A stretch of DNA of 64,000 nucleotides from Diplosphaera chodatii (taxonomy: Eukaryota > Chlorophyta > Trebouxiophyceae > Prasiolales > Stichococcaceae), in assembly GCA_032358165.1 (NCBI GenBank), contig JAALGY010000057.1:124001-188000 (forward strand), in the 5' to 3' direction. Positions 16,301 to 43,007 of the stretch are shown here, piece after piece. The position numbers and the translations under genes are program-made. The notes under the pieces are model-generated. The model saw only the letters and a list, made by a program, of their open reading frames with translations, did not search any database and was not told where the DNA came from. Within the stretch, counting starts at the first letter, position 1. Each line of letters begins with the position of its first letter.

Positions 16301-18938
16301 CAGGCCCTAGTGCCGATCAGCTTGCTAGCCCGTTGCGTGCGGTTGTGTGGTGACAGCATGGCACCATTGAAATATGGAGCCCAGGGTGGCCTGCCGACGA
16401 GAAGGAGGTACAACCAGCAGCAGTGCCGTCCAGCACGGCGCAGCCACATGCTGCACCGAGTTTGCATGGCCGGACAGGGCGGCAGCAGTCCCAGCTGGCA
16501 TGCACAGCAGCGCAATGGCACGAACCTCGTGACTGCTCAGGGTTCAACACTGTGCCAGCAGCCTGGTTTGGCTGATGTGGCGCCACCACGGCCTGATCCC
16601 CTTGCTGCTGCTGCTGGCCCTGGGCGCCTGCTGGTCTCATGATCGCTCTGATCATGTGGCGGAGCTCCTGTGCCGCCTCTGGCAGGCTGTGCCCCTGCAA
16701 TCGTCCACAGTAAGTCGTGTCCATGGGGTGGCGGGGGTTCCTGCAAGGCTCGGGTCTTTACACGCCACCTACGCCAGTCGTGCACATATGAACAATGTGC
16801 TCAGAGCATCCCGCCGCCATACCGGCAAGGTTGCTGACCGTCTACGGCGTTGTAATGAAGAGCAATGTTCAGATGCATGCTGCAGTGAGTGTCCTTTCGA
16901 ACCATGCAGTGACTGCATTCCACCTTGTATGCGAGCAGCCATCTCACGGGCTCACAAGCCGTTCCTTGCAGGTCATGCAGATGTACAGAAAGCAAGTATG
17001 CAGAAGTCCTGATAGGTTGCGACCTCATCAGGTGTTTGACAAGTTCCGTTTACCAGAGCGCAGAAGCATGCCTGCCCAAGCGCCGATGCTAACATGTCCA
17101 GCAACCGCCCCCGCTGCGCCTCCGACCTGGTCCGCATAATGATCGCCCCCATCTCCATGGTGGCTATGCCGTCCCCGTCTGCCACATCACCGCCGCACTC
17201 CGCGATGCACCTGGCCAGCTGCTGCCAGGCCTCGTGTGCGCTGTCCTCCACTGCACCAGCAATGAAAGCACACCCCATCGGTTCGGTACCATGTGTCACC
17301 CCGTCAGTACCATGTGTCACAAATCAGCACCGGCCCCAGTGCCTGCTTCGGCAACTGCTTGACAATGGCATCAGGCGCCAGCAGCTGGAAGACATGCTGC
17401 CAGATGCTATGGAGGCAGGCAACGGATTTACCATTCAGTGCGGGGGATGAGGCGTCCGCTGCTGGGTCAGCCGCAGCCTTCGACTTCATGTGAAATTTGA
17501 AGGAAAGAGTTTCTGGCTGATTGACGGGGTCAGTCTCGGGCTGCTGGCTGAAGCTGATGTCCGGCCAAGCCCCATTCTGGGTGGAAAAGACACTGAAGTT
17601 ATGGGCACATATGACTCTGATAACCTTGCAAGCCACCATGCCTTGCAAGGCCATGCGCATCACAGCAACATCTCTGGCATTCGGTCCTGCTGACACTTTG
17701 GGCAAGCAGCAAGAGCGGATAAGCAGGTGCTCCAGCCTGGACTTCAGGTAGCGCACCTCGCACAGGCACTGCCGCACATATGCTAGCAGCCGCTTCTTCT
17801 GCTGCTTTCCCCTCGAGTACGCCAGAGCGTAAGCCGCATATTGTGATCCCGGGCTCTCTAGCATGTTGGGATCAGCACCACACTCTGCAATGCAATGTGC
17901 CAGGCACGCCCTTGCCTCCTCCAATTCTGCAGCCAGAAGACAAAGATCTAATAATTTGATGCAGACGCAGCCAATCAATGCTGTCAGCGCTGTGATACCC
18001 CTCCACAGGCTGCAGTAGGATTACAAATGATGCAACTGCATCTCCTGCTGGTTTTCACCATTCCAACCGGCGTCAGCAAATCATACGCTTCGCCCAGCCA
18101 AGCTGCACCCCTGGACAGCGTCATTCAAGGTGCACATCTCAACTACCAGATGCCATGCTCAGCGATGCTCACCGTCTGTCTTCATGGCCAGAAGCGCCTC
18201 GTGCGCCTCATCATCGTCCGCCGACTGCTCCTGGTGCCGCACACTAGGAGTCACCTGCCCTGGCTTCGGGCCTGCTGCCGGCTGTGGGCTGGCCTCCTGT
18301 TGCTGCTGCGTGCAGGTCCGCGCTTGCTCAGCTGAATGCTCTGCTTCCCCTGCTTCTTCTGCTTCCCGCTGCCGCAGCCGCATGTGGTATTGGCTGACGC
18401 GCGCGCTGTGGTCCAGGTGTTCAGTTCCTAGCTTGCTGCGGATACAACTCACTGCCGCGCGCATGCTCGCTTCGGTGCTCAGACTGGCCGCCTTCATGTC
18501 TGCCTCTGTGTACCCCTGCATGCACAGTTGGAGGTGCATTCAATACAGGGCAGGCGTCAGCGCACACACCGGTGCTTGTCTGATGTCAGTCCACTTTTTG
18601 GGACTGTGCAGCATCTCGCCGGCAGCTGCATGTCAGCATGTGTGCCACTGTTGTGGCCCCTGCCGAGCCTCGGGGCGCCTGCGCACCTCGGGCCACCGCA
18701 GGATGCTGCCGGCGGCGGCGGCTGCGAAAGAACCTGGTTTGTCTGCTGTCCTGGGCGCCGTTTCTGCGCCAGTCGCTCGGGGCGTGCCGCTAGGGTCCCG
18801 AGCCGCTTGCTGCTTGGGCCGAGGCACAGCAGCTGCCGCTGCGTCAGCCGTCACACCTGACGTTACATCTGCAGCTGCAGTGGCTTGTGCAGTAGAGACC
18901 ACAACGCTGCTGGCATCGTCCCCGGCTGAGCTGCCCAT
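542..18938 (-). CDS. Gene A: giant 43-exon modular protein with C-terminal U-box
   Basis: This is a putative E3 ubiquitin ligase of about 2963 residues. The U-box recruits an E2; the long N-terminal part would choose the substrate, which is unknown. The model joins 43 exons at GT-AG sites (two GC-AG) with every intron phase matching and a total of 8892 coding bases, divisible by three. Order: Ala-rich N-terminus, helical Glu/Gln exon, five two-exon modules (types a-e), six-exon scaffold, a second complete set of five modules and scaffold, disordered Ala/Gln/Pro tail, U-box. The start is the ATG of MGSSAGDDASS at 18938; an in-frame stop lies just upstream. Phases at the join between the two cycles (11541 to 11267) agree, which favours one gene over two. 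It is divergent from FB1. Typical plant U-box proteins pair the domain with ARM repeats or kinases; I do not recognise this arrangement. Transcript evidence could still split it. Confidence 0.72.
1183..1202 (+). repeat. Telomere-like heptamer next to a U-box acceptor
   Basis: Two near-perfect TTTAGGG units sit in the intron just upstream (on the min strand) of the 1128-1174 U-box exon. They form part of the pyrimidine-rich 3' splice region read as CCCTAAACCCT. Confidence 0.6.
1542..4891 (-). other. Gene A C-terminal linker and disordered region
   Basis: Five exons (4692-4891, 3747-4493, 2880-3599, 2650-2726, 1542-2516) connect the scaffold to the U-box. The first is helical, with the segment LRGLMPADLKALSKNMGKLD. 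The second is Ala-rich and ends in a conserved motif, RRRFLRSELVQLLDAG. The third begins near SPEHRPWRAVPQTP and ends QFAKQHMPK. The last is strongly low-complexity but holds two motifs shared with genes C and D: a basic KPRRRYTPYTPP segment near 2260-2300 and an NDPFSWLG segment near 2035-2065. Codons for Ala, Pro and Gln dominate, so long shadow frames occur on the other strand. Confidence 0.7.
5078..7380 (-). other. Gene A scaffold block, cycle 2
   Basis: Six exons recur in the same order in genes A (twice), C (twice) and D: 7259-7380 (MVTRFSSWLRKYLT), 6894-6989 (LQALPTVAHVEFAISRML), 6666-6720 (a short helix), 6370-6426 (CRQYPFARQ), 5877-6049 (LLDLQEVFTQLVETW followed by a Leu-rich helix) and 5078-5558 (GMSVPVIKRALEQRIAKQH, then Ala/Pro-rich sequence with KPKRKPHGAAK). 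The block begins and ends in phase 1. The helical density suggests an all-alpha scaffold. I recognise no named family. The basic segment could be a nuclear-localisation signal. Confidence 0.7.
7579..11267 (-). other. Gene A module array, cycle 2 (five two-exon modules)
   Basis: Each module is a helical exon (phase 1 to 0) plus a 'WP-type' exon (phase 0 to 1). Type a: 11098-11267 / 10608-10752. Type b: 10210-10427 / 9840-9990. Type c: 9416-9594 / 8951-9218. Type d: 8656-8825 / 8421-8565. Type e: 7972-8144 / 7579-7678. Helical exons carry CVEECGASAELL, CMAESDVEIADG, LECGADWALM, CVIGCGASPALM and CLQESDIDYDHL. The WP exons include DGEWPEYTVF and GGCWPQGLVL; the type d and e partners lack the Trp-Pro pair. 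Exon lengths match their cycle-1 counterparts closely (170, 145, 170, 173 and 100 bases recur). The donor of 8421-8565 was chosen partly because it gives the family length of 145. Confidence 0.68.
11541..13995 (-). other. Gene A scaffold block, cycle 1
   Basis: Exons are 13883-13995 (MVTHFYTWLERLVS), 13509-13610 (LQALPSIAHVEHALAWLL), 13143-13200 (EFDLNNGQIMIMLRARMAG), 12871-12927 (RRQHPFARQ), 12378-12550 (ELLDLREVVVTLVETW) and 11541-12063 (GMSAPVIKRALEQRSAKQH and an Ala-rich tail with a second helix rich in Glu, Gln and Arg). All phases agree with the cycle-2 copy. The last exon ends in phase 1 at a GTGAGC donor and is followed by the type a helical exon of cycle 2, so the frame runs on. Confidence 0.7.
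14422..17926 (-). other. Gene A module array, cycle 1 (five two-exon modules)
   Basis: Type a: 17757-17926 / 17432-17576. Type b: 17072-17250 / 16526-16694. Type c: 16099-16283 / 15698-15923. Type d: 15303-15472 / 14985-15108. Type e: 14676-14848 / 14422-14521. Helical exons show CIAECGADPNML, CIAECGGDVADG, CIAECGVDAALM, CVLESGADPRLL and CMVESGIYDLRR. WP exons show NGAWPDISFS, GGCWPPELAI, DRVWPRKLAS and DGTWPAVKIA; the type b partner (16526-16694) lacks WP and is Gln-rich. The motif resembles the end of an ankyrin repeat, but the TPLH half is absent and the spacing is wrong, so I leave the fold unnamed. Confidence 0.7.
18173..18938 (-). other. Gene A N-terminal exons
   Basis: Exon 18687-18938 encodes an Ala-rich, probably disordered start and ends at a GTGCGC donor after ILRWPE. 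Exon 18173-18515 begins GYTEADMKAASLST and is a charged Gln/Glu/Arg helix with QYHMRLRQREAEEAG. It ends in phase 1 before GTGAGC, matching the first module. The same two exons, with the same donor, open genes E, F and D. In E and F the second exon runs directly into the pre-U-box sequence instead. Confidence 0.7.
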
Positions 18939-20318
18939 GCTGCTCGCGTGTCAACCACTCGGCTGGCTTGAATTGTGCTGGATGAGCTGCTGCTGCTGCT
19001 GCTGCGGCTGCGCATGATATGTAGCACATGGTCAGGATGGGGTAATGTGACACGACCCTGTTCATGTCATATCCGCCTCCAAAGGCTGGGACAACTACAT
19101 GGAATGTACATGCAATATGCCTGGCACTGCATCCATTTACAGCGTGGAGGCTCGTTGTGCCCAATGCATACTCTTGTGCATACCACTGCTCACCTTGCTA
19201 CGCCTGCTGCAGCAGCGACATGCTGGATGTACTTCCACCGCCCACGGCTGTCGCTGCAGTCATCTGCCGGTCATCAGTGCCTGGCGCAGACGCTGCTGCG
19301 CTTTCCGCTCCTGCTGCAGCCGCTGGGAAATGAGCTGCAGTGCTGTTTGCCTGATTGCTGCTGGTGCTCACGCTGCATCCAACAGCCGCTGACACTGCGC
19401 CTCAGCCTGTGCGGCAGACGTTTGCATGTCTGCCACCGTGTGCATACTCACCACGCCGCGAACGCTGGTGTATAATGTCGTAGCCACATGCACACGCGCC
19501 GAAGCATCCAGGCTGGAACGGCCAAGCTGCCGTGTGCAAGTTGTGAGCGCGGCACGGCTTGTTTGCCCAGTGGGTAGCAAATTGACGCCTCGCGAATACT
19601 CTTTCATAGCCAATGACTACCCCAATGACAGTACTCACTGTCAGATCACAGAAGCTGTCGATCGCTGCCGTACCTGTTACCATTGCCAGGACTGTGCAGC
19701 GCATGATCAGCAGCATCCAGCGCCGCAGGCTGCGCATGCAAGGCTCGTGCTATGCACGTAATTGACCAGCAGGTATTAGGGCCATCAGATGCAAACCGCT
19801 GCATGGCTGTCTGTCATCTCTGCAGGCAGCAAAGCATTGCGCAGGATGCGTATCAGGACCCAACAATTGGATGCCTGGCATGCATTGTGTCGAATTTGAA
19901 GTGTGGCCACGGATCGACACATGCAACAGGCACGCTTGCCGCTAAAGCCTCAATCAACCGCCTGCCGTGAGCGTATAGGTTGCAGCTGCGTCGTAGCCGT
20001 GCACCTGCGGCAAATATGACATGGCACCAGCAGGAGTCCATCCCATGAAGGACCTACTTCCTGCAAGCATGCATGCAGGCGGATTTTCCGGCGTCACTGC
20101 AGCGGCGTTCACTGTTCACACAACAGATTGCAAGTCACACGCAGCGACCCAGCATCAGCTTATTATTTGCTTCACGTGAACACTGAGCAAGCCCCATGCA
20201 CTGCGCGCGTGCATGCATGCACGACGTGAAGCACGAACAGGATGAATCATACATGCGCTACTTGAGAGCAGCAGCACGTACAGCATTCGCGGATTGATCC
20301 CGCCACCTTGCCATCGAT
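18939..20318. promoter_or_regulatory. Divergent spacer between gene A and FB1
   Basis: This 1.38 kb region separates two outward-pointing start codons and must contain the promoters of both genes. A stretch at about 19650-19737, read on the minus strand, begins MRSLRRWMLLIMR and ends at a conserved ACAG/GTACGG donor-like site. A Glu/Gln/Ala-rich open segment follows near 19200-19450. Both recur in the other units and may be 5' exons or leader sequence of the U-box transcript. I cannot define a TATA box or operator. Confidence 0.5.
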
Positions 20319-21847
20319 ATGCCGCACAGAAGCCGCACGCATCGCTCCAGGCGCCATCGTCCGCAGTGGGACCTCTTGACAGATGACATCTGGATTCATG
20401 TCATCGAACGCCTGGACATGTACGACAAGCTTGTAAGTTCCAACGATGCTCTAGGTATAGGCATATGCATGGCAATGTTGCATGACATCATATACTGCTA
20501 CATACACACTACAAACACTCTGTGTGATGTCAGCGATTGTCAGTGGACATCCAATGTGTTGCCCATACTTTGTATCATGGTTTGTGTCTTGCACTGACTC
20601 TGACATCTATGAGCTGTGCACTGTGCAGGAAATGCAGTACACCTGCCGACGGTTCTATGAGCTGCTGGCAAACCCGTCCACACCAAGCACATGGGGCAGG
20701 ATCGCCTTGTTCCTCAAGAGTTCGGATGTGTGGCTGGTGTGCGAGTGGGTACAGAGGAGGCTCAAAGGTCAGTGAGATCACGAGCGCTGGACAGATAGAC
20801 GAGAGAAAGAGGGTGACAGAGTGCACCACATGCAATGATGCTTCACCCAAACACACACGCACTGCATGAGCAACCATCAGCCATTTGACAAGCCACGGCG
20901 CACCTGGCTGCAGGCATCAGCGCTATCTGCTGGACCCACAGAGGCGTGGACAGCCAACAGCACATGGTTTGGCAGGCGCTTGTGGCATCAACGGCGAGCA
21001 CAAACATTCGCCTCAAGCTGCGCAATCACGCGATCAATGCGTCATGGGTTGTGCTCCAGCAGCCTTCACATGCAGAGATGATGCAGCGGCTGACGGCACT
21101 GGATATCAGCGTGCAGCAGCGTGCTGACGACATCATAGATGTCCACAGCCTGGCGGCTTTGCGACACTTGCGAGTGGGGGCCCCAGCCGACATCAGTTTG
21201 CAGGAGCTGGACGTCAGCAACGTTGGCGGCGGAGCAATCAAGTCGCAGCTCCACAGGCTGCGCACTGTGCAGCTGCGCGGTGTGCCCCCGGCAGCCTTCT
21301 TCCTGCCCGGCGCAGCCGAAGTCCTGCAGCAGCTGCACTCGCTGCACTTGCACCAGTGCCCTCTGCTGAACCACGTGCTTCCGTCAGAGATGCTGCGGCT
21401 GCGCGCTGTCAGCCGGCTTGAGCTCATGCAGCTGCCGCTGCGCATGATGCCGACATGCGCGGGCTGCCAGCCCTGCGGGTGCTGATCATGAGTGGCAGGG
21501 GCGGAGAGCCCAGTCTGGGTGCCCGTCAAGTCGGCGCCAATCATGCCGAGCTGGCGGCGGCACTGAAGATCAACCCGCTGGGGGGTGCCACGGGCTTGAC
21601 TGAGGTCATACTCCATGGGATCCCAGTCTTCAGTCAGACATGTGCAGAGGCAATTGAGCGGCTGCCACACCTGAAGTTGCTAGCCATGGACTATCTGACG
21701 TGCGAGGGCGGGGCGTTCTGGGCAGCCACCCTGCAACGGCGCATGCGCGGGCGCTGCAGGGTCCAGCTGGCATCGGACCATGTCAGCGTCAATGCCAATG
21801 GGGACAGCGTCCTGCCATATGGCACGTGGCCTGATGACGACTGGTGA
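20319..21847 (+). pseudogene. FB1: F-box/LRR gene with a one-base frameshift
   Basis: FB1 is a putative substrate receptor of an SCF ubiquitin ligase. Three exons: 20319-20432, 20629-20767 and 20914-21847. An N-terminal basic segment precedes an F-box split by a phase-0 intron (WDLLTDDIWIHVIERLD, then TCRRFYELLANPSTPSTW). The third exon encodes leucine-rich repeats such as LHRLRTVQLRGVPPAAF and LRAVSRLELMQLPLRMM. Compared with FB2 one C is missing at about 21450 (ATGCCGACATG against ATGCCCGACATG). The frame ends 36 bases later at 21483-21485, and the rest, ending in WPDDDW, lies in another frame. Its coding sum is one base short of a multiple of three. Apart from this the copy is clean, so the lesion is recent or an assembly error. 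Confidence 0.8.
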
Positions 21848-22382: not shown

Positions 22383-23173
22383 TCATGCGGTAGAGCCCAC
22401 CAACGATGGGGTGGCCTGCACAGCAGCGGCAGCCTCAGCGTTCAAGAGCGGAGCATGATGATGCCCTCGGGAAGACATCGCACCAGCTTTTCCACATGCA
22501 TGTGCTGCGCACGGCGAAGCTAGCCAGGTGACCAGGGTGCTGCAGCATGTGGCCCCTCAGATGACAGCTGGCCATGCTAGTGCGAATGAAGCACCCGCCG
22601 CATGGCTGACCCAACCTCCACACGTAAACCTCTTGCCTACCAGGGCCAGCGCCAGGTTGGGCGTCAGCGCCCGCGAGGCCAGCGGCTCGTTGGTCATGGG
22701 GCTGTTGCCGCTGCGCCTCAGCCACCTGCGCAGGCGGCACGCATGTGCTGAACGTCGTGGGAGATTCCCTGGTGGTCCTTGCACCTGGGGCTTCTGAGCA
22801 TTGAGCTGCTCAGAATGTTGATGGGGCATACTGTTCAGCCATTGCAACTACATGCGGGAAGCGCATTGCAGACTCACTTCTCGACAGACTCCCTGTCATA
22901 GGTGAAGCCGTCAGCAGCAATGACCTGCAGTTGATGGGTTGTCATCAGCATCTGCGGCTGGCCAGTCTTCACGAACCCTGAGCATTGCCTAAAGGTGCAC
23001 AGCAAGTATGCCAATGCAAGCAAAGCGGGCTAACGGCTTCACAGGCGCAAGCTTGGCTCTGCAACCTGTGATGTGCAAGCTTTCCGAAACAGCCAACGTA
23101 TATTCAGTGTACAGGATGGACTATCCAACTCACCGGGTCGTCCATGACTTCATGGGACAGTGGGCAGCAGCAC
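22383..23173 (-). other. Copy E U-box (exons 23134-23173, 22878-22924, 22641-22725, 22383-22415)
   Basis: The four U-box exons are intact in sequence and splice sites: CCCPLSHEVMDDP, VIAADGFTYDRESVEKW, SPMTNEPLASRALTPNLAL, then a short C-terminal exon reading ATPSLVGSTA. All differences from copy F here are minor. The domain has outlived the break upstream, which suggests that the break is young or that a spliced form restores the frame. Confidence 0.85.
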
Positions 23174-24282
23174 CTGCACCAGCGTGGTGCAGCTGTGAGT
23201 TTGCAGAAGAGGGTGCAGCATCATGGCCGGATGCACGACCGACTGACTCAGCATCAGCACAGCCTTAGCAACGAGCTGAGATGCAGTTCTATGCAAACAA
23301 CTCACATGTCGGCCAGATCGGGGCTCAGCGCCATGCCGTCGGCGGTCTGCAGCGGCTCAGCCGCGGTGGATGGCAGCGCCGCCATTGGTGCAGGTGCTGC
23401 TGCTGCTGCTGCCGCCGAGCCTGATCCTGCGCCTTGCTGCTCTGAGACCGCTGAGTGCGGGGGGCTGCTGGCATGGCTACCAGGCTGCGGGTGCGGTGTG
23501 CCCTTCCTGCCGGACCAATGTGCCTCCTGCTGCTGCTGCTGCAGCTGGCCATGCAAGCCCGCTGACCCCAGGACTGCTTTGATGTAAGAGTCGCCTCCCT
23601 GGCTTCGGGCCTGCTGCTGGCTGTGGGCCGGCCTCCTGCTGCTGCTGCGTGCAGGTGTGCGCTTGCTCAGCTGAACGCTCTGCTTCCCCTGCTTCTTCTG
23701 CTTCCCGCTGCCGCAGCCGCATGTGATACTGGCTGACACGCGCGCTGTGGTCCAGGTGTTCAGCTCCTAGCTTGCTGCGGATACAACTCACTGCCGCGCG
23801 CATGCTCGCCTCGGTGCTCAGACTGGCCGCCTTCATGTCCGCCTCTGTGTACCCCTGCATGGACAGCGGAGGGTGCATTCAACCCAGGGCAGGCATCGGC
23901 GCATACACCGGTGCCTGTCTGATGTCAGACCTCCGTGACATGACCACTTCCTGGGACTGTGCAGCACCTCGCCGCCAGCTGCATGTCAGCATGTGTGCAA
24001 CTGTTGCGGCCCCTGCCGAGCCTCGGGGCGCCTGCGCACCTTGGGCCACCGCAGGATGCTGCCGCCTGCGCATGAACCTGGTTTCTCCAATGACCTGGGC
24101 GCCGTTGCTGCGCCAGACGCTCGGGGAATGCCGCCAGGGTCCCGAGCCGCCTGCTGCTTGGGCCGAGGCGCAGCAGCTGCCGCTGCGTCAGCCGTCGCAG
24201 CTGACGTTGCATCTGCAGCTGCAGTGGCTAGTGCAGTAGAGACCACAGCGCTGCTGGCATCGTCCCCGGCTGAGCTGCCCAT
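22383..24282 (-). pseudogene. Copy E: short U-box gene lacking the modules, frame broken
   Basis: This is an internally deleted relative of genes A, C and D. Exons: 24040-24282 (MGSSAGDDASS start, ends RWPK), 23306-23854 (GYTEADMKAASLST helix fused straight to the pre-U-box Gln/Ala tail), then U-box exons. All recognition modules and the scaffold are missing. The fused exon is 549 bases and would need a length of two modulo three. The helix is read in one frame and the PSTAAEPLQTADGM tail in another, with the switch near 23590. A one-base loss relative to gene A is visible there but does not by itself restore the frame. Either a cryptic intron exists or the copy is dead. It is divergent from FB2. 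Confidence 0.6.
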
Positions 24283-25647
24283 GCTGCTCGCGTGTCAGCC
24301 GCTGGACTGGCTTGAACGGTGCTGGATGAGCTGCTGCTGCTGCTGCTGCTGCGGCTGCGCATGATATGTAGCACATGGTCAGGACGGGGTAATGTGACAC
24401 GAGCCTGTTCATGTCATATCCGCCTCCAAAGGCTGGGACAACTACATGGAATGTACATGCGATATGCCTGGCACTGCATCCGTTTACAGCGTGGAGGCTC
24501 GTTGTGCACAATGCATACTGGTGTGCATACCACCGCTCACCTTGCTACGCCGGCTGCAGCAGCGACATGGTGGTTGTACTTCCACCGCCCACGGCTGTCG
24601 CTGAAGTCATCTGCCGGTCATCAGTGCCTGGCGCAGACGCTGCTGCGTCTTCCGCTCCTGCTGCGGCCTCTGGGAAATGAGCTGCAGTGCTGTTTGCCTG
24701 ATTGCTGCTTTGGTGCTCGCGCTGCATCCAACAGCCGCTGACACTGTGCCTCAGCCTGTGCGGCAGACGTTTGCATGTCTGCCACTGTATGCATACTCAC
24801 CACGCCGCGAACGCTGCTATCTGGTGCGGTAGCTACATGCACACGCGCCAAAGCGTCAAGGCTGGAACGGCCGAGCTGCTGTGTGCAAGTTGTGAGCGCG
24901 GCCCGGCTTGTTTACCCAGGTGGTAGCGAATTGACGCCTCGTGAATAGTCTTTCATAGCCAATGACAGTACTCGCTTTCATATTACAGAAGCTGTCGATC
25001 GCTGCCCTACCTGTTGCGAGGACAGGGCAGCGCCTGATCAGCAGCATTCAGCGCCGCAGGCTGCGCATGCAAGGCTCGTGCTGTGCACGTCATTGACCAG
25101 CAGGTATTAGGGCCATCAGATGCAAGCCGCTTCATGGCTGTCTGTCATCTCTGCGGGCAGCAAAGCAGTGCGCAGTGTTGCGTATCAGGACCCAACAATG
25201 GGATGCCTTGCATGCATTGTGTCGAGTTTCAAGTGTGGCCAGGGATGACACATGCAACACGCACGCTTGGCGCTAAAGCCTCAATCATCCACCTGCCGTT
25301 GGTTGCAGCTGCGTCATAGCCGTGCACCTGCGGCAAATATGACATGGCACCAGCACGAGTCCATCCCATGAAGGACCTACTTCCTGCAAGCATGCATGCA
25401 GGCGGATTTTCCCGCGTCACTGCAGCGGCGTTCACTGTTCACTGTTCACAAAACAGAGTGCAAATCCCATGCAGCGACCCAGCATCAGCACGTTATTTGC
25501 TTCACATGAACACTGAGCAAGCCCCACGCACTGCGCGTGTGCATGCATGCACGACGTGAAGGACGAACAGGATGAATGATACATGCGCTATTTGAGAGCA
25601 GCAGCACGTATAGCTTTCGCGGATTGAACCCGCCACCTTCCATCAAC
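24283..25647. promoter_or_regulatory. Divergent spacer between copy E and FB2
   Basis: This 1.37 kb spacer is closely similar to the gene A/FB1 spacer. The exon-like block present there is also here (about 25000-25075 on the minus strand), but a TGA replaces the Trp codon after MRSLRR, so that reading is broken in this copy. Confidence 0.5.
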
Positions 25648-27148
25648 ATGCCGCACAGAAGCCGCACGCATCGCTCCAGGCGCCATCGTCCGCAGTGGGA
25701 CCTCTTGACAGATGACATCTGGATTCATGTCATCGAACACCTGGACATGTACGACAAGCTTGTAAGTACCAACGATGCTCTCGGTATAGGCACATGCATG
25801 GCAATATCGTATGACGTCATGAACTGCTACACACTACATGTGTGATGTCAACGTTTGTCAGTGGACATTACTTTGTATCATGGTTTGTGTCCGTCTTACA
25901 CTGGCTCTGACACCTATGAGCTGTGCACCGTGTAGGAGTTGCAGTACACCTGCCGACGGTTCTATGAGCTGCTGGCAAACCCGTCCACACCAAGCACATG
26001 GGGCAGGATCGCCTTGTTCCTCAAGAATTCGGATGTGTGGCTGGTGTGCGAGTGGGTACAGAGGAGGCTTAAAGGTCAGTGAGATCACGAACGCTGGACA
26101 GACGAGAGGAAGAGGGTGACAGAGTGCACCACATGCGGTGACGCTTCACCCAAACACACACGCACTGCATGAGCAGGCATCAGCCATCTGACAAGCCACG
26201 GCGCACCTGGCTGCAGGCATCAGCGCTATCTGCTGGACCCACAGACGCATGGACAGCCAACAGCGCATGGTTTGGCAGGCGCTTGTGGCATCAACAGCGG
26301 GCACCAGCATTTGCCTCAAGCTGCGCAGTCGCGCGGCCAATGCGTCATGGGTTGTGCTCCAGCAGCCCTCACATGCGGAGATGGTGCAGCGGCTGACGGC
26401 ACTGGATATCAGCGTGCAGCGTGCTGACGACATCACAGATGTCCACAGCCTGGCGGCTTTGCGACACTTGCGAGTGGGGGCCCCAGCCGACAGCATTTTG
26501 CAGCAGCTGGACGTCAGCAAAATTGGCGGCGGAGCAGTCAAGTCGCAGCTCCACAGGCTGCGCACTGTGCAGCTACGCCGTGTGCCCCCAGCAGCCTTCT
26601 TCCTTCCCGGCACAGCCGACATCCTGCAGCAGCTGCACTCGCTGCACTTGCACCAGTGCCCTCTGCTGAACCACATGCTCCCGTCAGAGATGCTGCGGCT
26701 GCGCGCTGTCAGCCGGCTTGAGCTCATGCAGCTGCCGCTGCGCATGATGCCCGACATGCGCGGGCTGCCAGCCCTGCGGGTGCTGATCATGAGTGGCAGG
26801 GGCGGAGAGCCCAGTCTGGGTGCCAGCCAAATCAGCGCCAATCATGCCGAGCTGGCCGCAGCACTGAAGATCAACCCGCTGGGGGGTGCCATGGGCTTGA
26901 CAGAAGTCATACTCCACGGCATCCCAGTCTTCAGTCAGACATGCGCAGAGGCAATCGAGCGGCTGCCACACCTGAAGTTGCTAGCCATGGATTATCTGAC
27001 GTGCGAGGACGGGGCGTTCTGAGCAGCCACCTTGCAGCGGCGGATGCGCAGGCGCTGCAGGGTCGAGCTGGCATCGGACCATGTCAGCATCAATGACAAT
27101 GGGGACAGCGTCCTGCCATATGGCACGTGGCCTGATGACGACTGGTGA
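25648..27148 (+). pseudogene. FB2: F-box/LRR gene with a nonsense codon
   Basis: The exon structure is as in FB1: 25648-25761, 25936-26074, 26217-27148. The F-box (WDLLTDDIWIHVIEHLD and TCRRFYELLANPSTPSTW) and the LRR array are intact. FB1's frameshift site is normal here (ATGCCCGACATG). A TGA at 27020-27022 replaces the TGG found in FB1, FB3 and FB4 at the GAFWAATLQRR position, removing about 42 C-terminal codons. After the TGA the frame continues to the family ending WPDDDW at 27148. FB2 may still make a slightly shortened LRR protein. Its lesion differs from that of FB1. Confidence 0.8.
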
Positions 27149-27670: not shown

Positions 27671-28461
27671 TCATGCGGTAGAGCCCACCATCGATGGGAT
27701 GGCCTGCAGAGCAGCGGCAGCCTCAGCGTTCAAGAGCGGAGCATGATGATGCCCTTGGGAAGACATCGCACCAGCTTTTCCACATGCATGTGCTGCGCAC
27801 GGCGAAGCTAGCCAGGTGACCAGGGTGCTGCAGCATGTGGCCCCTCAGATGACAGCTGGCCATGCTAGTGCGAATGAAGCACCCGCCGCATGGCTGACCC
27901 AACCTCCACACGTAAACCTCTTGCCTACCTGGGCCAGCGCCAGGTTGGGCGTCAGCGCCCGCGAGGCCAGCGGCTCGTTGGTCATGGGGCTGTTGCCGCT
28001 GCGCCTCAGCCACCTGCGCAGGCGGCACGCATGTGCTGAACGTCGTGGGAGATTCCCTGGTGGTCCTTGCACCTGGGGCTTCTGAGCATTGAGCTGCTCA
28101 GAATGTTGATGGGGCATACTGTTCAGCCATTGCAACTACATGCGGGAAGCGCATTGCAGACTCACTTCTCGACAGACTCCCTGTCATAGGTGAAGCCGTC
28201 AGCAGCAATGACCTGCAGTTGATGGGTTGTCATCAGCATCTGCGGCTGGCCAGTCTTCACGAACCCTGAGCATTGCCTAAAGGTGCACAGCAAGTATGCC
28301 AATGCAAGCAAAGCTGGCTAACAGCTTCACAGGCGCAAGCTTGGCTCTGCAACCTGTGATGTGCAAGCTTTCCGAAACAGCCAACGTATATCCAGTGTAC
28401 AGGATGGACTATCCAACTCACCGGGTCGTCCATGACTTCATGGGACAGTGGGCAGCAGCAC
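27671..28461 (-). other. Copy F U-box (exons 28422-28461, 28166-28212, 27929-28013, 27671-27703)
   Basis: This is a complete U-box with CCCPLSHEVMDDP, VIAADGFTYDRESVEKW and SPMTNEPLASRALTPNLAL, ending AIPSMVGSTA. Every splice junction lies exactly 5288 bases from that of copy E. Confidence 0.85.
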
Positions 28462-29946: not shown

Positions 29947-30873
29947 GCTGCCTCCGCTGGCAGCTGATGTGGCGCCTTGCTCCGCCTGTGCGGCAATGGT
30001 CAGCGTGTCTGACTGTATGCAGTGCAAACTACAGCGCCAAGGATGCTTCTCAGCCGGTATTCCCCTGATGCGCAAAGCGCCTTTGCGTCAACGCTGGAAT
30101 GGCCGACTGTTGTGTGCAGGCGACGAGCGCGGCACCAGGCCACCATCTGCCAGGACCGTTTGTAACATGTTGCGATGAAAATCATGGTGCCCTCTATACG
30201 CGTCGAGCAAATTGCCAATTGCTGCCGCACCTGTTACTGATGTCAGAATCATGCAGCTCATGACCATCAGCAACGCAGCGCCGCATGGAGCGCACGCCAG
30301 GCTCATGCTCTGCACAAAACTGACAATCAACTCTTCATTTCTCAGCTACAAGCTGAATGCATAACGTGTGTTATATCTGCAGGCAGCAAAGCACTGCGCA
30401 ACTTTTCACATCAAGATCGGACGATGCGATCAAGCATGCAGGTGCCGAGGTTCGAGGTTTGGCTACGATGACACTTGCAACTCGCACCCTCGGTGCAAGA
30501 GAGCCGAGCTCAATCACCTGCTATGATCGCATGGAATCGCGGCTGCGTCTCAGCCGTGCGCCTGCAAGCAACATGACATGGCACGGGTCCAGCAAAGACC
30601 TACTTCCAGCAAGCATGCACGCAGGCCGGCAGGCGGATTTTCCGGCGCAGTGACTTCGTTCACACCACAGATCGGAAGTCACATACAGCGAGCAGCATCA
30701 GCACGTTGCTTGCTTCAGGAGAATGATGAGCTGCCCCATGCACTGCGTGTGTGGCATGCATGCCTGCACGACGAAGAGCACCGCCAGTTGATGAATGAAT
30801 GATGCCACCCACTGTTGAGAGCAGAAGCACATCCCCGAGCTATCGTACATCCTTGAGTAAGCCCGCCATCGAC
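29947..30873. promoter_or_regulatory. Divergent spacer between copy F and FB3
   Basis: This spacer is diverged from the two upstream ones. The exon-like block is still visible at about 30230-30326 on the minus strand, starting MSLACAPCGAALL and ending at a GTAACAG/GTGCGG donor-like site in the same place. It presumably contains the promoters of both genes. Confidence 0.45.
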
Positions 30874-32409
30874 ATGAGAAGCCGCGTAAATCGCTCCAGG
30901 TGCCGCTGTCCGCAGTGGGACCTGTTGACAGATGACATCTGGAGGCATATCATCGAACACGTGGACAGCATTGCAGACAAGCTTGTGAGGCCAACAATGC
31001 GCTCTATGCTAGTTAGATAGGCACATGGCAACGTTGCACAACGTCGTCAAGTTGCAGGCAGAAAGTTGACCACTCATTTGTGTTGTCAGCAGTTGCCGCT
31101 CAGCAGCGTTCACGCTGCACATACCCCTGTTTATCATGGTTTGTGTTCCAACACTCTTCTTGAGACCTTGTAGCTGTGCACTGTGCAGGCCATGCAGAAA
31201 ACCTGCCGACGATTCTACCAGCTGCTCGCAAACCCGTCCACGCCAAGCACATGGGCCGAGCTGGAGATGTGTCCCCAGCGTGCAGGCCTCGTGTGGCTGG
31301 TGTGCGAGTGGGTGCAGCGGAGGCTGAAAGGTCCGTGATCATGGGTGCCGGACGGACGAGAGGAAGAGAGTGTAACACATGCACTGACATTTGACCAGCA
31401 CACGCATTGCGTGCAGGAGCAACAGCAACACCTGTTTTCCTGACAAACCCCGGTGCGGTTGGCTGCAGGTATCAGCGCGATCTGCTTCAGGTACAGAGTT
31501 GGAGACAGCCAGCAGCGCATGCTTTGGCAGGCGCTTGTGGCCTCGACAGCGGGGACAGACATCCGCCTGAAGGTGATTGGCACAGAATATCGGCCAGATG
31601 CATCTGCTGTGCTTATGATGACGGCGTCGCGAGGCGAATTGGTTCAGCGCCTGACAGCGGCTAGCATCACGGTGTCACATGCTGCTGACATCGCGGCCGT
31701 GCACGGCCTGGCAGCATTGCGCCACCTGCAGATCGCGTGCACAGCCAGCACCAGCATGCAGTGGTCAGACGCCAGCCACACTGGCGGCGAAGCTGTGGAC
31801 TGCCAGCTCCACAGGCTGTGCACCCTGCAGCTGCACCGCGTGCCCCCGGCAGCCTTCTTCCTGCCCGGCACAGCCGGCGTCCTGCAGCAGCTGCACTTTT
31901 TGCACTTGTGCCGGGGCACCCTGCCACACAGCGTCCTCCCGGCGGAAATGCTGCGGCTGCAGTCTGTCAGCCGGCTGGAGCTCTTGCAGCTGCCGCTGCG
32001 CATGATGCCCGACCTGCGCCGGCTGCCAGCCCTGCTGGCGCTGACCATGAGCGGCAGGGACGGCGAGCCAAGACTGGGTGCCAGTCAAGCTGGGGCCAAC
32101 CATGCCGAGCTGGCCGCAGCACTGAAGATCAACCCGCTGGGGGGTGCCATGGGCCTGACAGAGGTCATACTCCACGGCATCCCAGTCGTCAGACAGGAAT
32201 GTGCAGAGGCAATCGAGCGGCTGCCGCACCTGGAGCTGCTAGCCCTGGACTATCTGACGTGCGAGGAGGGGGCTTTCTGGGCAGCCACCCTGCAGCGGCG
32301 GATGCGCGGGCGCTGCAGGGTCGAGCTGGCATCAGACCATCTTAGCATCAATGACAATGGGGAGGCGTTTCTGCCACAGGACACGTGGCCTGGTGACAAT
32401 GACTGGTGA
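30874..32409 (+). CDS. FB3: F-box/LRR protein, intact
   Basis: This is a putative SCF substrate receptor of 397 residues. Exons are 30874-30984, 31189-31330 and 31469-32409, with phases 0 and 1 matching and one open frame throughout. It has a short basic N-terminus, then an F-box (WDLLTDDIWRHIIEHVD and KTCRRFYQLLANPSTPSTW) interrupted by the family phase-0 intron. About 300 residues of LRR-like sequence follow, including LAALRHLQIA, LHRLCTLQLHRVPPAAF, LQSVSRLELLQLPLRMM and LPALLALTMSGRDG. The C-terminus ends NDW. The F-box would bind a Skp1 homologue and the LRR face a target. It is the only intact member among the three copies in the 20-32 kb block, and is clearly diverged from FB1/FB2. Confidence 0.85.
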
Positions 32410-32856: not shown

Positions 32857-33506
32857 TCATGCGCCAGCACGCAGCATCGAGGGAATGGCCTGCAGAATGA
32901 CGACCAGCCTCGGTATCAGAGCGTCAGCACAATCTGAGCCGCATACGCCGTGCAGAGCTCGTCAATGTGTGCTGCACTGTGGTTACAAGCGTTGCGTAGG
33001 AAGCGCACTCAGGGCGCGACAGCTGATGAAGAACTCAAGACGCAGGGCGCACCTGGGCCAGCGCCAGATTAGGCGTCAGCGCCAGCGAGGCCAGCGGCTC
33101 ATTGGTCATGGGGCTGTTGCCGCTGCGCCTCAGCCACCTGCGCAGCCAGCGCGCATGGGAGTCGAGGTAGGTTGAGGAGATTCAAGTGGTGGCGACTGCA
33201 TGATGCGTGTGATGACAAACGAGTGCATTCTGTATGCACATGTGTACATCACGAACATAGATTGGTCGACACGTTACCGCCGGTATTGCCCTAAAACAGA
33301 GGGCATGCATACACGTGCTGTGTTGGCAGGCTCACATCTCGATGGAAACCCTGTCGTATGTAAAGCCGTCAGCAGCAATGACCTGCAGTCGGCACCAGAT
33401 CATCAGCACTTTGCAACAGGCTAGTCTCCTTGATCCGTGGACGAGATGATGGCGGATCTGACTCACCGGATCCTCCATGATTTCATGGGAGATTGGGCAG
33501 CAGCAC
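32857..33506 (-). other. Gene D U-box (exons 33467-33506, 33336-33382, 33053-33137, 32857-32889)
   Basis: The segments are CCCPISHEIMEDP, VIAADGFTYDRVSIEMW and SPMTNEPLASLALTPNLAL, followed by AIPSMLRAGA and a stop. All core U-box positions and the splice sites are preserved. Confidence 0.9.
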
Positions 33507-36500
33507 CTGCAGCAGCGTGTTGCGTCTGTCAGCATCGCGTCATAGATTGCGGACATGACAGATGACACAGGCAGTGCTTGTCCCAGCAGAGCCAGATCCC
33601 GGCATGTCGTTGTGCGTGAACTCCGCATGTTGCACGGGGCTCACATGTCATCCATATCAGGGATTGGTGCCGTGTCATCAGTGGCGGTCGACGGCAGCGC
33701 CGCCGGTGACGCCAGTCCCGCTGCCTCAGGCTGCTTGGCAGGCGCCGGAGGCGGGGAACTGCCAGAGCTGCTCTGCTGCTGCCGCTGCGCCTGCCGCTGC
33801 TTCCGACGCCCGGGCTGCTGCACAGGCGTATGCCCTGCCTGTTGCGCTGCCGCAGCTTCAGCAAGCCCTGGCGGGGCTGGCATGCGTTGGCGGTGCAATG
33901 CACTTGCTGCCGCGGGCGGTGCTGATGCCAGCGAAGATGCCGTTGAAGCCTCTGATGCCCCCCCTGCAGCGGCAGCAGCCGAGGTGTCACGCGCATCACC
34001 TTGATTGCTGGCACGAAGTCTGTGCCGCAGCCACATGCAGCTGCTGGGCACCATGGTCTGCATCCCGCGCAGCTGTCGCCACAGCAGGGGCGGGAGCTGC
34101 GGGTGTGGCAGGGTCTGCCGCCGCTACAGGGTGTGCCTCCACTACGGGGTGCACAGCATTGACGATTCCGGCAGCTGGCGGGGGGAACAATGCTGATGCG
34201 GCCACGCCCAGCCAGGAGAAGGGGTCCTCCTCCGCATCTGCAGCCTCTGCCTCAGGTGCGGCTGCAGCGCCGGCGGCCGCCGCAGGGGTCGGTGGCACGT
34301 CCACAGCCGTGGCGCCTGCAGGGGCGTGCGGTGCGTGGGGCGTGTATCTGCGCTTCGGCCTGCGTGCCACTGCTGGCGAGGCGGCTGAGGCGGTTGCCGG
34401 CAGGCGGCCAGGGTGCGCCCCGGGCTGCGCTGGCTGCTGCTGCTGCGCCTGCTGCGGCTGTGACTGCTGCGCTGGCGCAGCGTGCTGGCCAGCAATGCTG
34501 TGTCCCCCGCGCCACTGCAGCGGTGCAGCCGTGCTGCTGCCTCCGGCGGCAACACCGCCTGCCAGCGCCGTCGGTGACGCTGGCTGCCGGCTGCCGAAGG
34601 CTGCAACAACATCTGCACGGGACGTTGGCGTCTGCGGTTCCGTGCGCCAGGGGCTGCGCTCTGGGGCCGCCCAGAGGGCAGCATCCTGCGGCCACATGAG
34701 TGATGTTGCATGTCAAGGCGTAAACCTCGGCTGCAACTTATTCTGCATTCTTCACGGGTTTCCTTGGCTGCAGAGACTTAACTGGTAGTTGCCATTCGGC
34801 CAGCAGATGCGAGTCATGCCCAGCCACCCTCACATTCAAGGTCTCAGGTCACCTTCCAGGACGCGCTGACGTCTGGCAAGCTGCTGGCGCCTCCAACATC
34901 CAGCAGCTGGAACAGCGCGCTGCGCGAGTAGCACCGCCGCTCCGCAGGAGGCGGCTGCTGCTGAGCATGGCCCCGGGGCCCAGCGGTCTCGACACCCTCG
35001 GCCGTCTGCGGTGCTGCAGGGTGGACTGCTGGGTCCGCAGCAACAACAGCAGTGGCTGCGGCCGTGCCCTGGTGCTGCGCCTGGGCACACGGCTGTGTCG
35101 CTGCCACGTCAACGTTTCTAGGCTGCAGCTGCGTCGCCGCCGTGGGCAGCTCTGACGCAGCTGCACCAGCAATGGCTGCGGCAGCTGCGCTTGAGATTCT
35201 GCCACTGGATGCACCCTTTTGAGGCTGCGCGGTGTCAGCAGCCGTGTGCCTTGGCTCAGCGGCATCCTTGCTGGGATAGAGGACGAAACGCTGCAGCAAC
35301 GATCTGATGTCTGCGGCGGTGAACTTCTGCAAACCACACCCAAACACAGCAGGTCTGTGGATACAGTTCATTCAAAAGGCAGTGCACAGCTCTGAGGACC
35401 TTTGGTCAGGTGATGCGCACGGCATTCTGGCTGCATGGAAGACACAAAGTGCAGACCTTTGCCTCTCCCGGCCGACACGAGCACGAGGGGCCCCTGTCGG
35501 AACAGCCAGGGCGATGGACCAGACATTCCTGGTCTGCAGGCAGTTCCAGCAGCAGATCAACCAAGACGACCGTTCGCTGTCGGAAGTGAGTGTACGTCTC
35601 CTTGGCTGCAAGGTCTGCCAGGCCGTTGACTCCCAGCAGGAACGCCACGGTCTGCATGTGTGAACCCATTCTCGCGCCGGACAGCAGATCAGCAGGCCAG
35701 GGCCCAGCATCCAGCTCCAGGCCTGCAGCCACACCAGCGACAAGGCCGTCATGAGATGCCTGGTTTGTTTGCTTGATACACAGCAACGGGTTGACCTGGC
35801 CAGCGGAAGCAGCATCTTCTCAGGTGACAGCCCCGGCACTTTCTGAGGGCAAGCACGAAGGCGCCCTAACCGTGCATGCTTTGACTTCATGCAGAGAGGC
35901 TGTTGGAGCGCAAACCTGGTTGGATGCCCTGCAGTGCGGTGTCAGCCGAGGCTACATCGTCACCAGTGCTGTTGGGTGCTGGCTGCAGGGGCGGCGTCTC
36001 TGGTGGTGATTCTGGGATGCCAGCTGCCACTGCACTGCCACAAGCGGGAAGGACAGCTGGCTGTGATGCCTGCAAACTGAGCGGCGACAGGCAAGTGGAG
36101 CCCTGCGGGCGTCCCTTTCGCTTGGCAGGCGTTGTCGACAGGTCCGTAGCACGAGCAGGCTTTGCTGCCATGCCACCGTCCGTTGCTGCAGCCTCTGGCC
36201 CATTGGCTTCGCAAACTACGGCGCCAGCTGTGCCGCTGACTCTGTCTGGCGGCGCTGCTTCCGCCGCTGCACCCGCCACTTCAGCGCCCACTGCTGCTGC
36301 TGCTGCCGCCGCCGCCTCCACAGCCTGATGCTGCTTGGCAATGCGCTGCTCCAGCGCACGCGTGATGACCGGCACCGCCATGCCCTGTAGCACAGGAACG
36401 AATGAGGTGGCTCAGACCTGGTGGTGGAATTCTGTTGATGCTGGTTGATCGAGCTCACTCGACAGCAAATCCTGCAGCTGCCACTTGCGATGCGGCAGCT

Positions 36501-39500
36501 CCGGCACACTGAGGACTGGGACCAAGGCTGCAGTCAGCCGCGGTGTCTGCAAGCCACCAGCACAGGCAGGCGCACTGCGAAGCAGCCCTTAATATTGAGC
36601 TACTAAGCCGCAACCTGGCAAGCATGTGTGACATGTGTCATACATCGAATACAGCACATAGCACGCAGCAGCACCTTGTTTATCATCAGCGTGCGCACGG
36701 TGCCAAGCAGCTCCCGCTGGCCAGCTGCATCGGCAGCCAGCAGCAGCGGCGGCAGTGCCTCGGACAACAGCGTGTTGTCCCCCGGCCGCATGGCGCTCTG
36801 GTCCCACGTCTTCACCAGGCTGACGACCACGTCTCGCAGGTTCAGCAGTTTACCTGCGAGGGAAGACTTGCTTGCAATAAACCCCATCCCGGTGATCAAA
36901 GGCAGCTACCATGTGCCGCACATCATGAGCCAGCGCTATGAGATGGCTGGTAGGGCCGGCCTGCAGCAATCGGAGGGGTGAGCTTGGGTGAGCGGCATGA
37001 TGCTGCATTGCATCTTGTGAGTTGATGGTGCATAGCGCACCTGAACGTGCAAAAGGATATTTACTGCAGGCGGAGTCGCCATACATCCTCAGGCTGTCTG
37101 GAGATTGAAGAATACATGCATTTCAGGCCATATGACCGACACTGGTAGCCTTGATGTTGCCACTAGCTTGCGCTGTGTACAGCTCTGGACTGCTGCTGAT
37201 TGTATGGTACTGCCAGTGAGTGCCAAGCAAAGTATGTTGGCTGTGCATGCACATGCAGAGGGCACAGTGTCTGGAAGGTAAGAGTTCTAGGCTGCCTACT
37301 CACCCGCCAACCCACTCAGCATCTGGATGTTGTGGTCGTCCATCGTAGTCCAATCCTGCGCAACCGCACACAGTGCATATGGAACATATGCGTTTATTCT
37401 GGCATTACTTGTGCTCCTGTTGACCTACCTCCCCGGCATAGTTCGTTTCACATGTGCGTTGCTTGCAGCTTCAAGCAAGGTGTCTGACTGATCACCGATC
37501 ACTGCTGTGACAAACTGTTGGCCGGGGCCTACTGCTGCACAGGTGTGCAAAGCAGGCAGGCTCGCTGCCTGTAAAGGAGCGTACCTACGAGGGTGTCGCC
37601 ATACCAGGGGCAAGGCAAAGGCAGGTCATGTACATCATCATTCGAGTGGGCGGTGGTGCACCTGGAGTATGTTGAGCAGCCACGCCACAGCATGCTCCAC
37701 GTGGGCCACGGTTGGCAGGGACTGCAAGTCTTGGAGCATCTCGTCCATGGCTAGCACCTGCACACAAGCATCGCCACAATTCTTGCAGAAGCTGCTCATC
37801 AATAGAGTCAGGCAGCAATACAGCCAGTGCTTGCAATGCGGCGCCTCGCCCTGGAGCTGCAACACATGGTGCTGCCTGCGGACACCGCCTCGTGCAGTCG
37901 AACGCCTGAGTTTCATTTACAGCAGCATAAGCCATTGATCATCACCCTGTTCAACGTACTCTTTGTGAGAGAAGGTCCATTTGCCGGTTCTGGACACCGC
38001 ACTGACCATGCCCATGCCAAATCTTGTTGCCAGTTTCCAGACATCGCTTTGTGAATAGAGCAGCACACCTGCGACAACCTGTCCAGGACGTCCGTACCAT
38101 CACCAGAGGGGCAGTGCTTGCTGAGGTACTTCCTCAGCCAGGCCTTGAAGCGGATCACCATGCGGCGAACCTCAGCAGCCTCCTTACCTGCAAGGATCGG
38201 TCAGGAGCAGGCTGCAGCTTGAGTGAACGTTGGACAGACCTGAAGCCGCCTGGTGACAAGCAGCATAGACATTGACGACAGCTACTGCAGGAGGCCTGAT
38301 CTGCACTGCAGCACAGTCTATAGGAACACCGAACATTCGGTGATACGTTTGCTTTCTCGCATCCAGAGCGATTGAGTCGTCTGTGCATGTGGGCAGCATG
38401 GCACACGAGATGTCGGTGCATGCGCAGGGCATCAGCACTTGAAGCCACAGAAGGCAGCAGGGGAGGATGCACCTCCCGCTTGCCCTGGCTTGGGCTGGAG
38501 TGGTTCACTAGCATCAGCATGATGCTTGTGCTGCATGCCGCTTGATTCCAAGTGGCTCGATGACATACTGACAGGCAGTGCACTGCACAGTGCATGCCAG
38601 TATACCATTGTCTGCTGGAGCCTCGACATCTCCTGCTGCGCCTGCCACAGTCCTCGACTGGACGGTGATTTGGAATTTGGCCAGCCCGCCGCCAGCAGCA
38701 AAGGAGTGCTCAAACTGCTTGACGATCCTGATGTCAGGCCATGTACCATCCTGCACATGTGGCACAGAAGCTCGAGCAGAATGAATCCAATTGTGTGGGA
38801 CACCACTTCACCCAGGTTTTGACTGCTGTGCGAATTGCAGAAATCAGTCTCCGACAGGAGGTGTCAGCAGCTGTACGTAGAGCGTGTATGTAGACCCTGC
38901 TGGCATATCATTTCATGAAGCGTAGGGCTGGTCGAGCAACAGGTTAAGAACTGACAGCGGCATGCAGCCTGGTAAACTACAGTGCTAGCTGCCGTCCGTT
39001 GGCCAGGCAAGCCGACCCCAGCAGGCCTACCATTTGCCCTGCCAGGGACCCTAGCTCGCTGACCCTGTACAGGCACGCAGCATGCAATTTTGCTACAGCA
39101 ATCTGTTGAGCCCGCCCACCTCGCGCAGAGACTCCTGCAGCTGCCCCACCAGTGCTCTTCTATCTATGGAGTATCTACCCAGCAGAACACATGCTGCCTG
39201 ATGTGCGCCCGGGCACTGCAGCAGCTCGGGGTCGGCGCCGGCCTCCGCGATGAAATGCGCCAGGAGCGCCCTGGCCGCCCGCAGATCTGCGACACAGATG
39301 GAGGCAGGAGTCAGCGTGTGCAGGGATGGCATGTTAACAGCTCTCAGTGCTGAGCGTGCTCCAACATACAGATGCTTATAAACTAGACCTGCTCAGCCAC
39401 ACACACATGTTTGCCATGCTAGCATCTTCAAATTGCACCATTGCTACATCACCAGCCAGCTATCACACGTGTGACAGACAGGGCGCTAGGTGCACACAGA

Positions 39501-41373: not shown

Positions 41374-43007
41374 ATGGCCAAACGTAACGTGAAGCCCAGG
41401 GCAACGCAGCCTGGTGTGCCTAGCCTCATCAGCAGCATGAGTGCACTACGCGATCCGTCCAAGCGACAGCGCCCGCAATGGCAACTGCTGACAGACGACA
41501 CATGGGCGCAGATCATGAGTCAGATGACCTTCCACGACAAGCTGGTGAGGTTCACCACCGACTGGATGCCCTGCATGCGCATGGCCTATGGACTATGCGT
41601 AGCTGGGCCTCTTCGACGTTCCTTTGTCAGCACCTGCGCTGCTGCCATTGAACTGCCGTCATGACGCCCACGCATAATTGCATGTTTCGGTTCTGCCGTC
41701 ACTATGCTTGCCTGCAATGTTGCATGATACGTAGCATGACGGCTGCGTGCGGTGCTTCTGATATGCAGAGACTTCAGCAGACCTGCAGGCGTTTCTGTGG
41801 GATGCTTGCACACCCATATTCCACCAACATATGGGGCAGGGTTCACATGCCTGCCAACCAGGTCTCCACCAGCACTGATGTATGGCGGGTTTGCAAGTGG
41901 GTGCAGCAGCGGGTGGAAGGTCGGTGATACTATTCATACGTATATCCTCGAAAACCTTTGAGCTGCCTCCGAGCACAGTTGCGCTTGTGCATGCAAACCA
42001 GTCTTGTCATGCTGATATGTAGACGGACAGGATAATATAGACTTCCACTTCTATGTCCCGCAGGCATCAGTGCTGTTCAGTACACTTACAGCAACAGCGA
42101 AGACACTCAGCAACGGATCCATGCGGCCAAAGTGTGGCATGGAATTGTGGCATCAACAGCAGGCACGGGCGTCCGCCTGAAGATGTGCGCCAACAAGTGG
42201 TTCCCGCCATGCAATGTGCTTCAGCCGCCCTCTCACAGCGAGCTGGTGCTGCGGCTGACGGCACTAGAGATGAACGTGGCGCGTGCTGCTGACATCGCCG
42301 TCGTGCACAGCCTGTCAGCGCTGCGCCACCTGCTGGTCCGGTGCTCAGACGAGGCCACCACGCAGCTGTTGCAGAGCGCTCCCGGCCACGTCGGAGCCAC
42401 CGGCTGCCAGCTCTCCAGCCTGTGCACCCTGCAGCTGGTCCGCATGCCGCCTGCAGCCTTCTTCGTCCCCGGCACGGCCGCCAAACTGCGGCGCCTGCAC
42501 TCACTGTCGCTGGACCGGTGCCTGCTGTCAGACAGCTGTCTGCCGTCAGACGTGCTGCAGCTGCAGGCCCTCAGCAGGCTGGACCTCCTGCAGCTGCCGC
42601 TGCGCATACTGCCCGACCTGCGGCAGCTGCCAGCTCTGCGGACGCTGGTCCTGAGCAGGAAGGGCTGTAGGCCGCTCCTCGATGCCAGTCAGGCAGAGTG
42701 CAGCGCGGAGCTGAAGGCGGCGCTGATCGCCAATCCGCTGGGAGGTGCTGAGGGTCTCACCGAAGCGGTCCTCCACAACATGCCGATCACCACGCGGGCA
42801 TGCGCAGAGGCGGTTGAGCGGCTGCCACATCTGAAGACTCTAGCCCTGGAGTTTCTGGCATGTGATGCGGGGGCCTTCTGGGCCGCAACGCTGCAGCAGA
42901 GGATGCAGGGGCGCTGCAGCATTGAGCCAGCATCCGAATTCATTACGCCGCGTGCTTATGGTGGTGCAGTCATGCCCGTCTGTCCATGGCCAAACACTGA
43001 TTGGTGA
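41374..43007 (+). CDS. FB4: F-box/LRR protein, intact
   Basis: This is a putative SCF substrate receptor of 421 residues. Exons are 41374-41544, 41769-41919 and 42064-43007, with intron phases 0 and 1 as in the paralogues. The N-terminus is longer than in FB1-FB3. The F-box halves are WQLLTDDTWAQIMSQM and QQTCRRFCGMLAHPYSTNIW. Leucine-rich repeats include LSALRHLLVR, LSSLCTLQLVRMPPAAF and LQALSRLDLLQLPLRIL, and the protein ends WPNTDW. It is the most diverged of the four, and no lesion is visible. An upstream in-frame ATG at 41281 would add residues; I chose 41374 because it sits closer to the start position of the paralogues. Confidence 0.85.

Follow-up and report, generated by a model that had tools for sequence, protein, structure and literature searches.

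Convergent U-box and F-box/LRR gene pairs in duplicated arrays on one contig of the green alga Diplosphaera chodatii

Plant tandem F-box clusters grow by tandem duplication, contain many pseudogenes and show relaxed constraint in their lineage-specific members (PMC3030570, in excerpt). In Caenorhabditis tropicalis, the kss/fars-3 modules encode F-box antidotes that degrade linked toxins and duplicate with their target (excerpt of PMC12680543). Here, we describe an array in which genes of two unrelated ubiquitin-ligase (E3) families, one with a C-terminal U-box and the other encoding F-box/leucine-rich repeat (LRR) proteins, alternate along 64,000 nucleotides of D. chodatii (the window; C49:124001-188000, in a genome of 85.6 Mb and 55 contigs). 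Tandem duplication, numerous pseudogenes and relaxed constraint are common to this array and to the plant clusters as excerpted (PMC3030570), the difference being that here the F-box genes alternate, and were copied together, with an unrelated family that is itself E3-related. The excerpted kss/fars-3 modules (PMC12680543) likewise link an F-box gene to a second gene in a duplicated, chromosome-biased module, but the partner is here a predicted E3, and the F-box side is broken in four of eight pairs. No description of interleaved U-box and F-box arrays was found in literature titles and abstract openings. The excerpt of a Trebouxia paper (PMC11523091) mentions the U-box once, for a family whose gains and losses are small, and the F-box nowhere in the main text; as excerpted, it has no bearing on the pairing.

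At the level of sequence, the array combines alternating gene order, a constant tail-to-tail arrangement, tandem and inverted copies, and broken members. It is a lineage-specific E3 expansion with an unusual two-family layout. We consider it probable that a tail-to-tail cassette of one U-box gene and one F-box/LRR gene was copied on one chromosome, and that its two members are separate specificity factors, gained and lost by birth and death and mutually dispensable.

Gene models were spliced by eye from genomic sequence. Order upstream of the U-box is fixed: modules of 56 residues, of as many as five kinds and each with its own exon, come first, followed by shorter conserved exons (labelled RMV, VEFA, yg, ldl, and QGM), a W-rich exon and a DPFSWLG motif. 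In U1 to U5, three exons make up the C-terminal U-box, and F1 to F4 were each modelled with three exons. The features of the window are as follows.

788..1381, minus strand: U1, C-terminal U-box exons; upstream exons extend to about 11.26 kb (ldl 5871-6050, modules 7969-11262)
7969..11262, minus strand: modules of U1, five of 56 residues, one per exon; 10222-10371 is a weak match
12010..19804, minus strand: G2, modular gene, no U-box found, head to head with F1; first exon near 19804, five modules 14673-17921, ldl 12372-12551, QGM exon 12010-12066
20319..21847, plus strand: F1, F-box/LRR gene, three exons, exon 3 frameshifted
22641..25135, minus strand: U2, short U-box gene, N-terminal exons present, no modules found; U-box exons 22641-22724, 22877-22924, 23131-23172
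25648..27148, plus strand: F2, F-box/LRR gene, TGA in frame at 27020
27929..30400, minus strand: U3, short U-box gene, no modules found, 5' end approximate; U-box exons 27929-28012, 28165-28212, 28419-28460
30874..32409, plus strand: F3, open F-box/LRR gene, F-box 20.0 bits against a 20.5-bit cut-off
33053..39281, minus strand: U4, modular U-box gene, 5' end not fixed; U-box exons within 33053-33505, ldl 36669-36854, module 39117-39281
41374..43007, plus strand: F4, open F-box/LRR gene, PF00646 22.7 bits, exon 3 a predicted LRR solenoid
43734..53038, minus strand: U5, modular U-box gene, 5' end not fixed; U-box exons within 43734-44244, ldl 49952-50131, modules 52167-53038
54553..60043, minus strand: G6, modular gene, no U-box found; QGM exon 54553-54642, ldl 54947-55126, modules 57603-60043

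The spliced models bear out the alternation of four plus-strand F-box/LRR genes with minus-strand U-box genes that a preliminary description of this DNA had proposed. That description placed the F-box ends about 0.5 kb from the next U-box gene, which is roughly right: the F-box stop lies 0.79, 0.78, 0.64, and 0.73 kb (F1 to F4) from the last U-box exon. It also took the head-to-head pair as the repeating unit. This arrangement holds for three of the four genes and fails for F1, which faces G2 (about 12.0-19.8 kb), where no U-box was found. For the distance between facing starts, given there as 0.8-1.4 kb, the inferred start codons of F2 and U2 yield 0.51 kb, and U4 and U5 have no fixed start. 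Genome-wide, only five of the eight paired F-box loci stand head to head with a U-box gene, whereas an F-box/LRR locus, in places a remnant, lies tail to tail at 0.46-0.85 kb from eight of the nine U-box genes of the subfamily; one of these is U1, which adjoins a relic just beyond the window edge. For the ninth, at 352 kb, the 3.5 kb read contained no F-box tail neighbour. The unit is thus better called a convergent cassette. The eight convergent neighbours observed compare with a mean of 4.3 in shuffles that kept the strands of each family (eight or more in 52 of 20,000) and of 2.2 when strands were free (eight or more in 0 of 20,000); since the copies are related by descent, these frequencies overstate independence and are not clean p-values.

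The cassette has, as read from sequence, been multiplied through both tandem and segmental inverted duplication. Positions 18245-24183 and 23585-29478 form a recent tandem duplication (span 18245..29478) with 92% identity and a 5.3-kb period, and C49:310-352 kb is an inverted collinear copy of the window block on the same contig, holding counterparts of G6, U5, F4, U4, F3, and U1. The proposed co-amplification of two unrelated E3-related families is therefore supported. Between the arrays, exon 3 DNA differs by 24-27% in the pairs F3/F3' and F4/F4'. Separately, the U-box exons of U2 and U3 are unusually near those of C49:327250-327780 in silent sites (proportion of synonymous differences, pS, 0.08), and the F-box genes beside U2/U3 and beside the 327-kb copy are about 69% identical; the low pS despite this F-box divergence hints at gene conversion.

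Outside these arrays, the two families are found apart. Only 8 of the 31 F-box/LRR loci detected genome-wide are paired, the other 23 having no U-box of the subfamily within 1 kb, and tandem F-box clusters without such a U-box occur at C49:94-104 kb (adjoining the array), on C46 and on C8. The last U-box exon of the subfamily was found at nine sites genome-wide, all on C49, by a pattern allowing up to three mismatches; a reversed control pattern gave no match, and more divergent members could escape this count. U-box matches as a whole number at least 151 (150 of 231 candidates scored), and many of them form same-strand arrays spaced by 5-6 kb (C1, C9, C10, C14, C19, C24, C33), several near contig starts. 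On the contigs with such spacing (C1, C9, C14, and others), no member of the window F-box family was found. The existence of separate F-box and U-box arrays elsewhere indicates that the linkage is local to C49. A tree of 24 of the 31 F-box loci places the paired genes in two clades, one of F1, F2, F3, and F3', the other of F4, F4', and an unpaired gene at 101 kb. A single clade of paired genes was rejected by the approximately unbiased test (p 0.007).

The F-box/LRR copies at C46:246318-247256 and C49:436130-437050 (synonymous divergence, dS, 0.15; ratio of nonsynonymous to synonymous divergence, dN/dS, 0.63) are recent duplicates, indicating that the F-box/LRR family also moves between contigs. 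At C49:104789-105232 (plus strand), a transposase remnant abuts a truncated F-box/LRR gene at 105 kb; it matches the ZSWIM RNaseH-like domain above cut-off (38.9 bits) and MULE below it (24.2 bits against 27.6). In the U-box subfamily, the 3' half of the copy at C49:106236-108464 (minus strand) is one 743-residue open frame. The upstream exons of this copy are separate and the other copies are split by introns, which suggests 3'-biased intron loss.

The U-box exons are under purifying selection (ratio of nonsynonymous to synonymous proportions, pN/pS, 0.30), and the F-box/LRR exons evolve faster. Ten pairs were chosen for exon 3 of the latter: dN/dS was 0.32-0.63 in nine and 0.96 in the broken pair F1/F2. 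Over all 276 pairs, pN/pS ranged from 0.46 to 0.96 (median 0.65). In four of the eight pairs, the F-box locus is a relic, truncated or otherwise broken next to a U-box whose frame is still open, and this speaks against obligate pairing; the U-box copy at 335 kb is frameshifted. Together, this F-box decay, the dN/dS of 0.32-0.63 and the separate arrays elsewhere are consistent with ordinary birth and death. A TGA occurs in two unlinked F-box/LRR genes, at 27020-27022 of the window and at C49:524477-524479, apparently at one shared position, a conserved tryptophan codon in the C-terminal region.

The preliminary description further proposed co-regulation from shared promoters. Conservation is the one test possible, and it lends this proposal no support. 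Identity between arrays in the divergent stretch was 64%, 55%, and 52%, as against 50-62% for F-box introns and 71-80% for F-box exons, the stretch being set for F3 and F4 to the 0.5 kb that precede the start codon because the start of the facing gene is not known; the tail stretch gave 51-58%. Within the window array, the divergent stretch was 69% identical for F2/F3 (introns 66 and 74%) and 38% for F3/F4 (introns 46 and 38%). Thus, neither between arrays nor within the window array was conservation of the divergent stretch beyond that of introns found.

Both families resemble known E3 components. Once spliced, the U-box scored 61.4-65.1 bits against PF04564 (four of the five window copies scored; cut-off 21.4) over a complete domain, whereas before splicing the U5 frames reached 12.1 and 12.6 bits and one U4 exon 22.8 bits, the last barely above the cut-off. 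The exon layout is uniform in eight of the nine subfamily genes, the ninth being unsplit, and CP[IL]S, WL, and NSPMT, motifs with a role in contacting the ubiquitin-conjugating enzyme (E2), are retained in all nine copies (middle exon omitted for U1 and the 335-kb copy). A search for U-box relatives gave six matches among 177 candidates, the best from the green alga Sanguina aurantia. The canonical U-box is shared with PUB12 (solved chain, E 8.6e-12) and CHIP (chains, E about 2e-10); the two best chains by summed score were the two-U-box bacterial protein LubX and a similar one. PUB-ARM proteins carry armadillo repeats and CHIP carries tetratricopeptide repeats. In the window genes, by contrast, the U-box is the last recognised domain and is preceded by low-complexity stretches and the unmatched 56-residue module; three unspliced frames of U4 and U5 gave no Pfam ARM match.

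AlphaFold predicts the module to be helical, with a predicted local distance difference test (pLDDT) score of 86. Its fold gave nine matches in PDB at E ≤ 10 and none at E ≤ 0.001, and an alignment of 16 exons gave no relative at E ≤ 0.001 among 778 candidates, which speaks only weakly for absence because a spliced family is elusive among single-exon predictions. In the genome itself, 24 of 25 module matches and all 11 ldl matches are on C49, the exception being a marginal module match on C46 (E 0.0012). The module is apparently lineage-specific. It occurs without a detected U-box in G2 and G6, and U2 and U3 combine a U-box and at least one N-terminal exon without detected modules.

Of F3 and F4, which were scanned for an N-terminal F-box (PF00646, cut-off 20.5), F4 lies above the cut-off and F3 half a bit below. 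The LRR part of F4 is a predicted solenoid following the F-box (pLDDT 86), the order also seen in FBXL17, FBXL2, SKP2, and COI1, receptors of SKP1-cullin-F-box (SCF) ligases. FBXL17 and FBXL2 head the structural list for F4, which includes SKP2, and COI1 tops the Foldseek list; identity is 12-16%, and other LRR proteins fall within 1 Z. The window family differs from these receptors in its clustering, with 25 of 31 loci on two contigs. Relatives of F4 include at least 15 predicted metagenome proteins (E down to 2.7e-88; 7998 candidates scored), and a SKP1-type gene is present at C45:772124-772267. As predicted from domains and folds, the U-box would recruit an E2, with targets chosen by the N-terminal helical modules, and the F-box/LRR protein would join SKP1 and choose targets through its LRR surface.

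The most economical explanation is that the two families supply specificity factors to ubiquitin ligases independently of each other and became neighbours through duplication, their linkage probably being carried along rather than held by selection for joint action. Several observations pull the other way. Tail-to-tail order was kept in both arrays despite the divergence of F3/F3' and F4/F4', which could reflect selection for linkage. None of the four modular genes without a U-box has an F-box tail neighbour, as against eight of the nine U-box genes; a single deletion could explain this joint absence. A further U-box match (C49:93009) also lies 1.6 kb ahead of an F-box cluster in which pairing is otherwise absent.

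An alternative is that the two genes serve one pathway as pathogen or stress receptors, kept together and co-regulated through a divergent promoter or overlapping 3' ends. The near-constant convergent order, kept across the inverted block, the joint absence of U-box and F-box at four modular genes and the faster change of F-box/LRR exons would all fit. We nevertheless regard such a functional pair as unlikely: the divergent stretch is conserved about as introns are and the tail stretch reaches only 51-58% between arrays, half of the pairs have a broken F-box gene, 23 of the 31 F-box loci lack the partner, and dN/dS is below 1 (a pairwise figure, blind to single sites). It is quite improbable that each F-box/LRR protein works solely with the modular U-box ligase of its tail-to-tail neighbour, one controlling the stability of the other, in a linked, rapidly copied system of self or non-self recognition built on a new helical module; the broken F-box partners argue against an obligate control circuit of this kind.

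Very improbable, in our view, is a toxin-antidote-like or self-recognition module in which the F-box/LRR protein degrades the neighbouring modular U-box protein, as in C. tropicalis. Tight two-gene linkage, module-wise copying on one chromosome and a fast-changing F-box gene recall such modules, for which duplication of F-box antidotes with their target is described (PMC12680543, as excerpted). However, an intact antidote-side partner was not found wherever the U-box is intact: in four of the eight pairs the F-box locus is broken or truncated beside a read-through U-box, which would be intolerable unless other copies cover. A mating-type locus was also considered. The RWP-RK regulator marks some algal mating types only; a genome-wide search gave 18 matches, with a single one on C49, at 2.67 Mb, and none near the arrays, and one mating type may naturally be without RWP-RK. 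That the genes are spurious frames, or neighbours by chance, in GC-rich sequence is scarcely credible: splicing was by eye, most unspliced matches are weak and antisense open frames are many, but the common U-box exon layout, exon identity exceeding intron identity between arrays, the U-box pN/pS, the confident LRR fold and the metagenome relatives of F4 all speak for genuine genes.

The layout thus likely arose through ordinary duplication and decay of genes, and a putative joint role in defence or in allorecognition and self-recognition is possible. Tandem F-box clusters are well known; here, two unrelated ubiquitin-ligase families are copied as one cassette. Together with its apparently lineage-specific, exon-encoded helical module, this cassette provides a clear-cut setting in which to ask whether E3 genes that are linked also interact. 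If they act on each other, the arrays would be a recognition locus with a new layout; if they do not, they would be a good example of hitchhiking during gene-family expansion.
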